From a virus, in the IMG/VR virus record IMGVR_UViG_3300023174_000151, positions 1 to 64,000 of that record: 64,000 bases of DNA; one strand, given 5' to 3'. The translations under genes were made by a program, and so were the position numbers. Numbering within the stretch: the first letter of the stretch is position 1; each line of letters begins with the position of its first letter. Below the pieces are notes generated by a model. That model was not told where the DNA came from. It worked only from the letters and a program-made list of their open reading frames with translations, and did not search any database. Positions 667-42,276 of the stretch are shown here, in pieces.

Positions 667-779
667 CCACCCCTCGTGTAGGGCGCGAATCCGGTAAATG
701 CCCGCCACCACTGGGTTCTCGGTATTCGGACTGTTATGTCGAAGGGTGGGGTTGAGCCTCCAGCGGAGATAGGCACCGC
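667..779 (+). ncRNA. Structured leader RNA, family A copy 1
   Basis: A 10-base outer stem (667-676 with 740-749, one mismatch) encloses a roughly 63-nt branched domain including GGGC 681-684/GCCC 700-703. It is followed by a hairpin GCGG 763-766/CCGC 776-779 with loop AGATAGGCA. The hairpin lies 18 nt before the GTG start of the next gene. Three further copies of the final hairpin, with the same loop but other stem bases, follow in the next three spacers, so it is probably a functional RNA. Family not recognised. Confidence 0.55.
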
Positions 780-797
780 ACAACCAAGAGTAATCCG

Positions 798-1034
798 GTG
801 AACAAGAACCAACAGCTAGCCAAACAAGCTGTAGATAAAGCTAAGAACATGGGCTGGGAAGTCCGTGTTTGCTACGACCAAAGTGACGTGATTGATTATG
901 CGACAGTAGTTGCCTGGGCACCAGGATCTACTAGAGCTCGCTATATCACTTTCATCGATGAGATAGAGGGATCAAAAGGATGGCGATCAGTACACAAACT
1001 TGATAGTCTTCTGGAGTTTCATACTGCTCTCTGA
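798..1034 (+). CDS. Small hypothetical protein (78 aa), GTG start
   Basis: I do not recognise this protein. It is a compact mixed alpha/beta sequence without membrane segments. The GTG start is supported by position: it sits 18 nt after the family A hairpin, matching the 14-17 nt spacing to the ATG in the three following copies. There is no usual Shine-Dalgarno site. The TGA stop lies inside the first stem of the next structured leader (1031-1036), so translation of this gene would disrupt that stem. Confidence 0.6.
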   Translation: MNKNQQLAKQAVDKAKNMGWEVRVCYDQSDVIDYATVVAWAPGSTRARYITFIDEIEGSKGWRSVHKLDSLLEFHTAL

Positions 1035-1106
1035 GTACCAGGCGTGATGCCGGGAGGTCGAACCTCCCACTCAGTATTGCCTAGTCCGCAGGAGATGGGC
1101 ACCTGC
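1031..1106 (+). ncRNA. Structured leader RNA, family A copy 2
   Basis: Stems visible: P1 CTGAGT 1031-1036/ACTCAG 1069-1074; P2 GGC 1041-1043/GCC 1049-1051; P3 GGGAGG 1052-1057/CCTCCC 1063-1068; then P4 GCAGG 1088-1092/CCTGC 1102-1106 with loop AGATGGGCA. P1 contains the stop codon of the upstream gene, and the next ATG is 14 nt beyond P4. P3 and P4 differ in base pairs from copies 3, 4 and 1 but keep geometry and loop, which supports RNA structure. Confidence 0.65.
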
Positions 1107-1120
1107 ACAGCACAAACATC

Positions 1121-1315
1121 ATGGGCATTCGCTCAGGTTTAGTCGCAGCTATCCGCAATGGTGTAGCCGTTGCACGGATGGAGTTTGACGCTGGCTTAGC
1201 TCAGCACAATGCGGAGTACGAACTCCGTCAGATTAAGGCTAAACAACAACAGCTCGATGCACGTATCACAGGAGATTACATTCCTGCTTCAAGATTACGT
1301 GTGACTAATAGCTGA
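1121..1315 (+). CDS. Small hypothetical protein (64 aa)
   Basis: Unrecognised. The central part is a likely amphipathic helix rich in Ala, Gln and Arg. It has no membrane anchor. The ATG is 14 nt downstream of the family A hairpin, and its TGA overlaps the base of the next structured leader. It belongs to a run of four tiny genes that share this leader architecture. Confidence 0.6.
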   Translation: MGIRSGLVAAIRNGVAVARMEFDAGLAQHNAEYELRQIKAKQQQLDARITGDYIPASRLRVTNS

Positions 1316-1387
1316 TCCGTACAAGCGGGTGACCAAGTGCAAACCTTGGTCCAGTCATTGCCTAGTCCGCAGGAGATGGGCACCTGC
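1312..1387 (+). ncRNA. Structured leader RNA, family A copy 3
   Basis: P1 CTG 1312-1314/CAG 1352-1354; P2 CCG 1317-1319/CGG 1326-1328; P3 GACCAAG 1331-1337/CTTGGTC 1345-1351 with loop TGCAAAC; P4 GCAGG 1369-1373/CCTGC 1383-1387 with loop AGATGGGCA. In addition CATTG 1357-1361 could pair with CAATG 1400-1404, which would hide the start codon of the next gene. P3 differs from copy 4 at several pairs with every change compensated. Confidence 0.68.
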
Positions 1388-1401
1388 ACAGCATTAATTC
1401 A

Positions 1402-1563
1402 ATGACACTTACTTACGAACAACTGTTCAAGTTTATGGGCACCTTCAGCAACCAAGAGTTAGATGATGCACAAGTGATAGCAGAATATCACTCCAAAGAA
1501 TCTAGTAAGAGTTACAACCAGATACTGGTTGAGATATTAGTGGAGATGCGTCAAGCAAGCTGA
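1402..1563 (+). CDS. Tiny hypothetical protein (53 aa)
   Basis: This short gene begins MTLTYEQLFKFMG and ends at the TGA in 1561-1563. It looks like a small helical acidic protein. I do not recognise it. Support comes from context: it fills exactly the space between two family A leader RNAs, with the same leader-to-ATG spacing as its neighbours. The TGA again overlaps the first stem of the next leader. Confidence 0.6.
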   Translation: MTLTYEQLFKFMGTFSNQELDDAQVIAEYHSKESSKSYNQILVEILVEMRQAS

Positions 1564-1645
1564 TCCGTACAAGCGGGTGGCTAGGTGCAAACCCTAGCCC
1601 AGTCATTACCCTTAGCGGAGATGGGTACCGCACAACCAAAGGGTA
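1560..1645 (+). ncRNA. Structured leader RNA, family A copy 4
   Basis: P1 CTG 1560-1562/CAG 1600-1602; P2 CCG 1565-1567/CGG 1574-1576; P3 GGCTAGG 1579-1585/CCTAGCC 1593-1599 with loop TGCAAAC; P4 GCGG 1615-1618/CCGC 1628-1631 with loop AGATGGGTA. An extra stem TACCCTT 1607-1613/AAGGGTA 1639-1645 encloses P4 and ends three bases before the next ATG. P4 is GCAGG/CCTGC in copies 2 and 3 but GCGG/CCGC here and in copy 1. Confidence 0.68.
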
Positions 1646-1648
1646 TCC

Positions 1649-1912
1649 ATGGACTTAGCAACAGGCTGGCAAAAGCATCTTGGTGTAACAGGTGGTTATC
1701 AACTGTTTTATCAAGATATCTACATCGGCGAAGTTTCCATTGTTACTGGACCGAAAGGTTCAGGAATAATGGGAAATAACGATCCAGGTCAAGAACCTAC
1801 TTACGAAGTATGGTTTCCAGGGGCAGCTAATCCAATTGGCTACCTTAAGCTTGATGAGATTAAAGGAATCATCAAGTATCTACATCAACTCCAGAATGAT
1901 TTTTGCAAGTAA
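1649..1912 (+). CDS. Small hypothetical protein (87 aa)
   Basis: Unrecognised. The first two thirds are rich in Gly, Tyr and aromatic residues in a pattern suggesting beta strands; the end is a helix. No membrane segment. The ATG lies three bases after the outer stem of family A copy 4. The TAA stop overlaps the base of the following double hairpin (family E). An overlapping ORF in another frame (1585-1779) is judged a shadow. Confidence 0.6.
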   Translation: MDLATGWQKHLGVTGGYQLFYQDIYIGEVSIVTGPKGSGIMGNNDPGQEPTYEVWFPGAANPIGYLKLDEIKGIIKYLHQLQNDFCK

Positions 1913-1953
1913 GCCTGAGTAACACCAGGCTTTCCTGCAGAGTTCACTCTGCA
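1911..1953 (+). ncRNA. Double hairpin leader, family E copy 1
   Basis: Two adjacent perfect hairpins: AAGCCTG 1911-1917/CAGGCTT 1926-1932, then TGCAGAG 1936-1942/CTCTGCA 1947-1953 with loop TTCA. A related element lies before the gene at 2528. The first stem begins within the upstream stop codon, and the next ATG is 23 nt past the second hairpin. Confidence 0.6.
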
Positions 1954-3585: not shown

Positions 3586-3619
3586 CCTGGGCACCCATCA
3601 CCATGGGGTAAGTCCCAGG
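3586..3619 (+). ncRNA. GTAAGT hairpin, family B copy 2
   Basis: Outer stem CCTGGG 3586-3591/CCCAGG 3614-3619, inner stem CCCAT 3594-3598/ATGGG 3603-3607, internal loop CA/GTAAGT. It is followed by a 30-nt leader without any G up to the ATG at 3650. Confidence 0.7.
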
Positions 3620-35801: not shown

Positions 35802-36656
35802 TTACAATTCTGGCATTTCGTATTCTTTTGTGCTGTTGCAATAGTGTTTAAAGATGATCTCACTTGTGTTCCCTGCCCATGATGCTACCTGTGGTACAGG
35901 AATACCAGCTTCTATCCAGCAACTGATCGCAGTGTGGCGACAATCGTAGGGACGGTATAGGTGAGAAATTACTCTTGTGTCATGTAAAGGCTTTAGTTTT
36001 TTACGGAAGTAACTTTGAAAAGCTACTCGATCCCAAGGAAAAATAAAATCATTTTCCTTTGGTACTTTTTCAAGAAGCTCTTGGCACTTGTTGTTGAGTG
36101 GGACCCAGCGTTTCTTGTTGGTTTTAGTACTGTTCTTTAAACCGTGTGTAAGGGTGTAGTTCTGATGTACAAGAATCTTATTTTCTTTAATATCATCCCA
36201 GCGTAAAGCCCGCACTTCTCCTGTACGCATTGCTGTTTGAAGCATGAATTCTGTGTACCAAGACCAATTAACATTCCTATATGTACGCTTTGCCGCTAAT
36301 GCGGCTAACACTATACCTATTTCATTTCTAGGAATAACAATAATCTCTTCATCTTTCTGTGGCGGCTTAGGCATTTTAAAGCTAGCCAAAGGATTCTTGT
36401 CCATATGTCCTACATCTTCTTGTGCTGCCCATTTGTACATTGTTTTTGCGTACATCGCTACACGCCTGGAAGCAAGCACAGGCTTTTCTCCCAGTATCCA
36501 GATCATGACCTTTCGTGCTTCGCTGATGTCTTGTACTGGACAACGGGATAACCATTTTGTGGTTTGCCTGTAATCAGATGTAAGGCTAGTGGGACACAGC
36601 GAAATTGAACGTTCTTCCAGGAAGGCGTTCCATAATTCTTTGAGTTCTAGTGCCAT
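35802..36656 (-). CDS. int: Tyrosine-type integrase/recombinase (284 aa)
   Basis: N-terminal SAM-like DNA-binding helices (LWNAFLEERSISLCPTSLT), then the catalytic domain: AMRTGEVRALRW (first Arg), YDCRHTAIS (second Arg box, with Tyr in place of the first His, which occurs in the family), VPQVASWAGNTSEIIFKHY (His/Trp region and nucleophile Tyr). Length is standard. It would insert the phage genome into the host chromosome or resolve dimers. I could not identify an attP core. It is followed to the right by a divergent KilA-N gene, as in lysogeny regions. Confidence 0.9.
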   Translation of the reverse strand: MALELKELWNAFLEERSISLCPTSLTSDYRQTTKWLSRCPVQDISEARKVMIWILGEKPVLASRRVAMYAKTMYKWAAQEDVGHMDKNPLASFKMPKPPQKDEEIIVIPRNEIGIVLAALAAKRTYRNVNWSWYTEFMLQTAMRTGEVRALRWDDIKENKILVHQNYTLTHGLKNSTKTNKKRWVPLNNKCQELLEKVPKENDFIFPWDRVAFQSYFRKKLKPLHDTRVISHLYRPYDCRHTAISCWIEAGIPVPQVASWAGNTSEIIFKHYCNSTKEYEMPEL

Positions 36657-41628: not shown

Positions 41629-42276
41629 CTAAACAAGGATGATTAAAGGGCCTTTGAAATTTAAAACTGCAAATTGTCCGTAAAATTGTTTTGCAGCTAA
41701 ATCATAAGCTTTAGCTGCATCTTCTTCTTTATGAAATCTTCCAAGTTCTTTTGGTTTACCGTTAATTACAATTCTTGCACGCCACTTGTTTCTAGGCTTA
41801 TGCCAGTAAACACCTTTATACTTGCTTGTTTTTTTCTCTTTTATTGCAGGAGTTAATTGTCGGTTATGACAATTTGATGCAGAAGTTGCAAGGCGTAAAT
41901 TCCCAATATTATTATTTTGTTTATTTTGATCGATATGATCTATTTGTAACTCTGCAGGATCTTCGTCAAAATAAAGAGCCCAAACAAATCGGTGGCACGC
42001 CCAAGATTCTTTTTTGTACTTAACATACCAGTATTGTCCATTTCTTATACCACCTGCGGGCATCCCAACGTTTTTGCCTTTCTTCCATAAGAGTCCAGAT
42101 GGGCTATCTTGAGAGATTTTAAAAGCAAGGGATAGTTCTTTGAGCAGCGGTAAAGGCTTTGACTTGACCAAGTTGTTTTGGACGGGCTTTATAGTATAAA
42201 CCAAAACCGCTATAAAATAATCAAAGGGCCACGGATAACAAATCCACTGGTACTGCCCGAGACAACGCCAGAACAA
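41629..42276 (-). CDS. HNH-AP2 homing endonuclease between fibre genes (215 aa)
   Basis: HRFVWALYFDEDPAELQIDH followed by DQNKQNNNIGNLRLAT is the HNH core. SKYKGVYWHKPRNKWRARI...LGRFHKEEDAAKAYDLAA is an AP2 DNA-binding domain. Both are the standard parts of phage HNH-AP2 homing endonucleases. The C-terminus continues past AP2 with FKGPLIILV, nearly the same as the end of the upstream fibre (RGPLIIL). The first part of the frame overlaps the fibre 3' end, so the true start is uncertain, possibly a non-ATG codon. It probably invaded at the fibre 3' end. Confidence 0.82.
   Translation of the reverse strand: MFWRCLGQYQWICYPWPFDYFIAVLVYTIKPVQNNLVKSKPLPLLKELSLAFKISQDSPSGLLWKKGKNVGMPAGGIRNGQYWYVKYKKESWACHRFVWALYFDEDPAELQIDHIDQNKQNNNIGNLRLATSASNCHNRQLTPAIKEKKTSKYKGVYWHKPRNKWRARIVINGKPKELGRFHKEEDAAKAYDLAAKQFYGQFAVLNFKGPLIILV

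Follow-up and report, generated by a model that had tools for sequence, protein, structure and literature searches.

A predicted tRNA-like RNA element at stop codons between tiny early genes of cyanophages

Introduction

Why would four neighbouring spacers between tiny viral genes all end in the same small RNA structure? The question arises near the beginning of the window, the 64,000-nt stretch of DNA analysed here, which is part of a 72,113-base IMG/VR virus record (IMGVR_UViG_3300023174_000151). The parent record carries psbA and is related to Synechococcus phage S-EIVl, so its source is a cyanophage. Between positions 798 and 1912, four tiny open reading frames (ORFs) follow one another on the plus strand, each with a preceding spacer, and no known protein family was found for any of them. 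The first (798–1034) has a GTG start and encodes 78 aa, the second (1121–1315) 64 aa, the third (1402–1563) 53 aa, and the fourth (1649–1912), which follows the last copy of the RNA, 87 aa. The 5′ end of the second ORF recurs behind other copies of the RNA (loci L004, L006 and L007), and that of the third is near-identical in loci L003 and L006.

Elsewhere in the window, a gene for a family A DNA polymerase (PF00476; 11042–13687) has a middle section that reads like an intein (CVPTDITTVLTKEGWKTYDEL...GDCITITGNC), with no Pfam intein match at the threshold used. An HNH_3 plus AP2 homing-endonuclease-like ORF (41629–42276, minus strand) is flanked by two repeat-rich, tail-fibre-like genes. A tyrosine integrase gene (PF00589) occurs at 35802–36656 (minus strand), and no obvious lysogeny module was seen in the phage.

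Results

The core GGAGAT(G/A)GG(C/T)ACC is present in all four spacers, at 765, 1091, 1372 and 1617; with two mismatches allowed, 0.7 occurrences are expected by chance in the whole window, and no shuffle reached four. The original prediction, that the spacers share one 3′ hairpin and loop, is borne out, with P4 stems of GCGG/CCGC in copies 1 and 4 and GCAGG/CCTGC in copies 2 and 3. The next start codon lies 18, 14, 14 and 17 nt after P4 in copies 1 to 4, within the proposed range of 14–18 nt. The hairpin is present but is predicted to be one half of a pseudoknot, as its loop (GGGCA, GGGTA or AGGC) pairs with TGCCY, TACCC or GCCT just upstream. A junction had also been described for three spacers, and we find it in copies 2–4 with the named P3 stems, GGGAG(G)/(C)CTCCC, GACCAAG/CTTGGTC and GGCTAGG/CCTAGCC; we add that P3 is capped by a T-loop and that the junction appears tRNA-like. 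The upstream stop codon falls within P1 in copies 2–4 (TGA at 1032–1034, 1313–1315 and 1561–1563, ending ORFs 1 to 3), as proposed, but not in copy 1, whose 5′ part is of another kind and which no gene immediately precedes. Neither the tRNA-like elbow nor the pseudoknot nor the two-module build had been recognised.

All four copies are on the plus strand. Copy 1 (667–779), which serves as leader to the cluster's first gene, has a 5′ part of another design, the sequence of which is conserved in L006. No tRNA-like domain was recognised in it; its pseudoknot domain pairs A (756–759, GCCT) with A′ (771–774, AGGC) and closes P4 with 763–766 (GCGG) and 776–779 (CCGC). The match to model R1 is weak (E = 0.046), and no same-strand ORF occurs within 260 nt upstream. 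The 5′ part (667–750, CCACCCCTCGTGTAGGGCGCGAATCC...GAAGGGTGG), almost identical in L006, looks like a separate first-gene leader structure.

In copy 2, the predicted tRNA-like domain (1030–1077) comprises P1 (1031–1036 CTGAGT/1069–1074 ACTCAG), a D-like arm (GGC-GTGAT-GCC), P3 (1052–1056 GGGAG/1064–1068 CTCCC), T-loop 1057–1063 (GTCGAAC) and a linker to 1077; the outermost P1 position, 1030/1075, is a T-T mismatch. The pseudoknot domain follows directly (1078–1106), with A/A′ at 1078–1083 (TGCCTA) and 1096–1101 (TGGGCA) and P4 at 1088–1092 (GCAGG) and 1102–1106 (CCTGC). Copy 3 matches model R1 over 1310–1386 (E = 1.7e-13). Its tRNA-like domain (1310–1358) combines P1 (1310–1314 AGCTG/1352–1356 CAGTC), a D-like arm (1317–1328, CCG-TACAAG-CGG), P3 (1331–1337 GACCAAG/1345–1351 CTTGGTC), T-loop 1338–1344 (TGCAAAC), N73 (A1357) and U74 (1358), and its pseudoknot domain (1359–1387) has A/A′ at 1359–1364 (TGCCTA) and 1377–1382 (TGGGCA) and P4 at 1369–1373 (GCAGG) and 1383–1387 (CCTGC). 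Copy 4, itself part of model R1, matches it over 1558–1631 (E = 7.6e-19). The tRNA-like domain here (1558–1606) consists of P1 (1558–1562 AGCTG/1600–1604 CAGTC), a D-like arm (1565–1576, CCG-TACAAG-CGG), P3 (1579–1585 GGCTAGG/1593–1599 CCTAGCC), T-loop 1586–1592 (TGCAAAC), N73 (A1605) and U74 (1606), followed by a pseudoknot domain (1607–1631) with A/A′ at 1607–1611 (TACCC) and 1623–1627 (GGGTA) and P4 at 1615–1618 (GCGG) and 1628–1631 (CCGC). Relative to copies 2 and 3, both pseudoknot pairings have changed together.

Within copy 4 (1607–1645), TACCCTT can also pair with AAGGGTA (1639–1645), immediately ahead of the start codon. Minimum-energy prediction favours this alternative, which is absent from the other TACCC copies looked at. 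Single-sequence folding of the four copies is unconvincing (z = 0.2, −1.0, −2.2 and −1.3), but comparison with homologues does show structure.

An exact 23-mer of copies 2 and 3 was found in five other contigs, and two looser patterns drawn from different parts of the RNA each matched at least 119 stretches in viral contigs. The pseudoknot pattern had three scattered matches, near chance, in 84,980 bacterial and archaeal genomes (257 billion bases), which against the viral numbers argues against a bacterial or prophage origin. Copies were detected by the T-loop and its distance to the 3′ domain, and 322 distinct ones were collected from 143 contigs or records; of these, 171 contain a pseudoknot and 143 a hairpin. 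The copies almost always share one orientation within a locus, at a median spacing of 282 nt, and are followed by ORFs with a median of 63 codons; one locus holds up to seven different copies, all in the same orientation.

Among cultured phages, a 53-copy model identified two copies in S-EIVl and one in S-CBP2 (E = 3.3e-10). A pairing-based detector, for which shuffled controls gave at most 0.25 matches per strand, added plausible copies in the T7-like cyanophages NATL2A-133 (2), 9515-10a (2), S-CBP2 (2), Syn5 (1) and S-SBP1 (1), all at the early-gene end. The Syn5 site spans 2699–2760, and one S-CBP2 site spans 1277–1350. Three further matches (two in NATL2A-133, one in S-SBP1) look spurious. 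The detector found no copy in P-SSP7 or P60, and a short intergenic match in P60 is without its support. Matches to Mycobacterium phage tRNA genes reflect T-arm resemblance only. A T7-type RNA polymerase is encoded in 7 of 22 tested records, and the element therefore occurs in at least two unrelated phage groups.

The 5′ domain is almost certainly a tRNA top half, judging from its predicted acceptor-like P1, D-like arm and T-arm with a 7-nt T-loop (TGCAAAC, ATCGAAT, TTCGATT and others). The 3′ strands of P1 and P3 join without a break and, as in a tRNA, the T-loop stem stacks on the acceptor stem to give ~12 bp in total. The split between P1 and P3 varies (5+7, 7+5, 6+6 or 8+4) and the distance from the T-loop to the TGCC/TACC strand of the 3′ domain is kept, at 14 nt in 126 and 15 nt in 27 of 154 copies. 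In 138 type I copies selected by landmarks, with no P1 or P3 pairing demanded, P3 is paired in 137–138 at each position, with up to five standard pair types including G-C, C-G, A-U and U-A. P1 is paired in 135–137 of them at four positions and at the end pair, 1-72, in 112. In the 53-copy alignment, 98.8% of cells are paired, the covariation score is 0.415 versus 0.148 in shuffles, and 176 double changes contrast with 52; slid out of register, only 35–48% of cells pair. Strongly covarying homologues thus exist in related phages, supporting the original view of a functional, repeatedly used RNA.

Covariation between the D-loop and T-loop is the clearest sign of a tRNA elbow in these sequences. 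Across 187 copies with a D-like arm other than the GTGAT type of copy 2, the last D-loop base and third T-loop base (19-56) form G-C in 181 copies and A-U in the other 6, with zero exceptions. The neighbouring contact, 18-55, covaries in step (A/G 169, G/U 9, C/G 9). The same rule fits distant 9515-10a (TTAAGG with TTC, two copies) and Syn5 and S-SBP1 (AG with TGC). The linker is 2–3 nt, mostly A73-U74: in one subtype only (type I, n = 135), N73 is A in 117 copies, U74 is found in 134 and C74 once. A 3′ CCA is not encoded, as N73 (A, C, T or G) is followed by T in those 134; nearly all type I copies have A or C at N73 before that U. An encoded CCA is missing from many cyanobacterial tRNAs too, and its absence alone excludes nothing. 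The nucleotide before P1 (−1) is C in 61, A in 43, T in 27 and G in 7 of the 138 type I copies. Stop codons begin at P1 nucleotides 3–4 in 195 of 313 copies and within nucleotides 1–7 in 219. In L062, TGA has become TAA with compensating pairs (AAGTA/TACTT), so the stop in P1 is kept; the stop lies before P1 in S-SBP1 and inside the D-loop in Syn5.

A second structure begins almost immediately downstream. Of 138 type I copies, 121 have a hairpin, variable in sequence, beginning 2–3 nt past the acceptor end. In the pseudoknot form, TGCCT/AGGCA, TGCCC/GGGCA and TACCC/GGGTA substitute for one another as A/A′, and GCGG/CCGC, GTGG/CCAC, GCAGG/CCTGC and AGGG/CCCT as P4. The search that yielded these variants required pairing, whereas the 53-copy alignment did not, and in the latter 99.6% of A/A′ cells and 100% of B/B′ cells are paired, with double changes in both, as for an H-type pseudoknot. 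AGAT and GGAGAT are invariant. The first loop measures 3 nt where stems are 4 bp long and mostly 4–5 nt where the stem is GCAGG, tracking stem length as expected if both helices form together. The third loop has zero nucleotides; possibly, the pairings represent two mutually exclusive hairpins instead of joint helices.

In the hairpin form the stem varies freely and the loops are conserved. In copies such as L003, L207 and L199 the loop is often ACTGA (CAC-ACTGA-GTG), T7-like phages included; its retention while stems vary suggests that it may be recognised by something. A Shine-Dalgarno sequence is missing before the start in 132 of 140 hairpin-type copies, and roughly half of the pseudoknot copies contain one of their own. 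Downstream of the pseudoknot, about half of the copies (e.g., L010, L021 and L103) also have a small hairpin, ACAGGAGATTCCTGTG or ATGGAGTTATCCAT for example, whose 5′ arm contains the Shine-Dalgarno sequence; the start codon lies at the 3′ arm. The downstream start is fairly constant in position, 30–45 nt past the start of the 3′ domain.

The two domains appear to be separable. Copies paired by a common downstream gene alone show a 3′ domain identity of 0.75 (background 0.53), the same 3′ class at 0.87 (background 0.47) and a T-arm identity of 0.46 (background 0.44), and pairs that share only the upstream gene have a T-arm identity of 0.57 (background 0.44) and a 3′ domain identity of 0.60, in a comparison that is descriptive because pairs of copies are not independent. 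From this pattern, the tRNA-like part tends to travel with the preceding gene and the pseudoknot or hairpin with the following gene, the linker being the joint. The element precedes many unrelated tiny genes. That a domain lacking the T-arm marks operon starts is suggestive as a rule: no gene precedes copy 1, L006 or L174, but one does precede other pseudoknot-only sites.

Rfam 15 gave zero matches in the window at the gathering score, in line with the original statement that no named family has these features, and permissive Rfam scans of the window start and five homologous loci returned nothing relevant. The element is not an ordinary tRNA or tmRNA, having no anticodon arm, and ARAGORN called none. 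No promoter or intrinsic terminator signal was found between copies. The open literature, searched with subscription journals mostly outside its reach, held no description of the element, and the RNA family is apparently undescribed in cyanophages.

Other repeated spacers were noted. Between small genes at 2774–2803 and 3586–3619 of the window, and also in S-EIVl (L008, 4530–4561), a spacer of the form CTTGG-CAT-CCAC..GTGG-TGTAAGT-CCAAG or CCTGGG..GGGGTAAGTCCCAGG makes a hairpin with a T-loop-like internal loop, TGTAAGT. A further family lies just after stop codons (window 1910–1953 and 2393–2507; L044, L111, L122, L137, L153, L166 and L179) and consists of AAGCCTG..CAGGCTT, then (C)TGCAGAG..CTCTGCA or CTGCAGGACTYAACATCCTGC. 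A conserved GGGGGCTGCGCATCCTAACAACGCAG hairpin precedes some genes of these clusters in L007, L050, L062, L076 and S-EIVl (L008, 1910–1935).

Discussion

What, then, could such an element do? Comparison among copies establishes, at the level of sequence, the predicted fold, the ~12 bp of P1 plus P3, the D-loop/T-loop contact, the short, mostly A-U linker and the separability of the modules. Our tentative preference, held at somewhat less than even confidence, is that the element is a two-module punctuation mark in polycistronic early cyanophage mRNA, a tRNA-like cut and end-protection site used most plausibly by RNase Z. Module 1, tRNA-like and usually over the upstream stop codon, would form the 3′ end of the upstream message, and module 2, the pseudoknot or hairpin 1–3 nt further on, the 5′ end of the downstream message. 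With the stop codon free of the ribosome, module 1 would fold as a pre-tRNA mimic, and the host tRNA 3′-processing enzyme, most plausibly RNase Z, would cut after N73 in the linker. The upstream mRNA would retain its stop codon and finish in a tRNA-like fold at its 3′ end; in the downstream mRNA, about 2 nt at most would separate the 5′ end from a hairpin or pseudoknot. Each of these structured ends should slow decay in a host whose RNase E some T7-like phages induce. The role would parallel that of RNase III sites in phage T7 early mRNA, or of tRNAs in mitochondrial transcripts.

Acceptor stem, T-arm, elbow and unpaired N73 are features read by tRNA end-processing enzymes. RNase Z cleaves directly after N73, with C74 as an anti-determinant (PMC3161902), and is single-copy in cyanobacteria (slr0050; PMC10989914). 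P-SSP7 infection induces host RNase E (PMC10989914), making end protection plausible. In a variant of the same model RNase E would cut the AUU linker, which it could do without any tRNA mimicry. Against a tight tRNA-processing substrate, the end pair 1-72 is loose in type I copies, and elbow mimicry would suit RNase P, EF-Tu, SmpB or the ribosome equally. Against a pure processing site, the stop codon position is regular, which such a site does not require.

That regularity keeps a translational role alive. As the tRNA mimic refolds, it might, together with the pseudoknot or hairpin, retain or reload a ribosome that has ended at the P1 stop and let it restart at the downstream start codon, as a bacterial analogue of viral reinitiation elements and factorless IRESs. 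We regard this as unlikely: the stop inside P1 in most copies, its survival of the TGA-to-TAA change, the Shine-Dalgarno sequence mostly missing from hairpin-type copies, the invariant GGAGAT and the fairly constant start position all fit, but P1 cannot form while the stop codon occupies the A site, and scanning should be impeded, not aided, by two stable folds that separate stop from start. Moreover, the stop is displaced in S-SBP1 and Syn5, about half of the pseudoknot copies supply their own Shine-Dalgarno sequence, and T-arm type is independent of the downstream gene. Rather unlikely, too, is a bacterial-virus tRNA mimic that, folded from the stop codon on, handles the terminating ribosome and restarts the next tiny gene, as a prokaryotic counterpart of viral tRNA-mimic IRES or reinitiation RNAs with several in tandem per operon.

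RNase P cuts have been reported in some bacterial polycistronic mRNAs and in phage C4 and M3 RNAs, and host RNase P might cut the tRNA top half at the 5′ end of P1. Acceptor stem, T-stem and T-loop suffice for bacterial RNase P (PMC11143913), and these minimal features, with the 12-bp stack and the elbow, are present. In most copies such a cut would come ahead of the stop codon, so that upstream mRNAs would lose it, which makes RNase P less likely; nucleotide −1 is mostly C or A and the end pair often weak, and we consider this use of the element improbable. Slightly more doubtful still is a regulatory receptor, each spacer tuning the next gene in cis through a sensed ligand or a bound tRNA-binding protein (EF-Tu, a synthetase, SmpB or a phage protein). 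T-loops and pseudoknots are common in riboswitches, and the invariant AGAT and GGAGAT and the conserved pentaloop of hairpin copies would suit a receptor, yet an unrelated hairpin can take the place of the downstream domain, and other T-arm types that of the upstream arm, and many unrelated tiny genes follow with no conserved expression platform. Very improbable, finally, are selfish or recombination elements, whether mobile cassettes or att-like tRNA mimics for gene shuffling. Flanking genes are shuffled around the element and tRNA-like attP sites exist (HF2, PMC8707807), but a locus may hold up to seven different copies in one orientation. Stem sequence varies with pairing kept, so RNA structure, not DNA identity, is under selection, and these compensatory changes disfavour attP or mobile DNA.

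A tRNA elbow backed by tertiary covariation thus appears to lie inside mRNA, at stop codons, several times per genome. If the punctuation model is correct, this would be a natural tRNA-mimic punctuation signal outside organelles. Because carriers are cultured and infectable (Syn5, S-CBP2, NATL2A-133, 9515-10a, S-SBP1 and S-EIVl), phage message separation outside E. coli hosts is directly testable.

The individual parts are well known (tRNA-like structures, H-type pseudoknots, intercistronic processing sites), and their combination at phage early-gene stop codons appears new. The tRNA-like domain of tmRNA similarly joins acceptor and T-arm with a D-like region, no anticodon arm and a linked pseudoknot. 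The cyanophage element, however, is an mRNA segment in which the pseudoknot follows the acceptor 3′ strand and both CCA and a tag ORF are missing, and ARAGORN and Rfam are silent on it. Plant-virus 3′ tRNA-like structures (e.g., TYMV) are viral RNAs that also mimic the tRNA top half via pseudoknots, but they occupy the 3′ end of a genome, carry CCA and are aminoacylated, whereas the element is internal, in many copies per genome, and in a DNA phage. The dicistrovirus IGR IRES and reinitiation elements likewise place a tRNA mimic and pseudoknot between stop and start; the IGR IRES mimics anticodon-codon pairing, unlike the acceptor, T-arm and elbow mimicked here, where start codons are ordinary ATG or GTG. 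In mitochondrial tRNA punctuation, tRNA folds lie between ORFs with stop codons at or inside the tRNA border, but those are real, functional tRNAs; the cyanophage mimics have no anticodon arm, and their processing is only inferred. The RNase III sites of phage T7 likewise put a recurring RNA structure into the spacers that separate small early genes in a polycistronic phage mRNA, and where T7 uses an irregular RNase III hairpin, these cyanophages appear to use a tRNA elbow.
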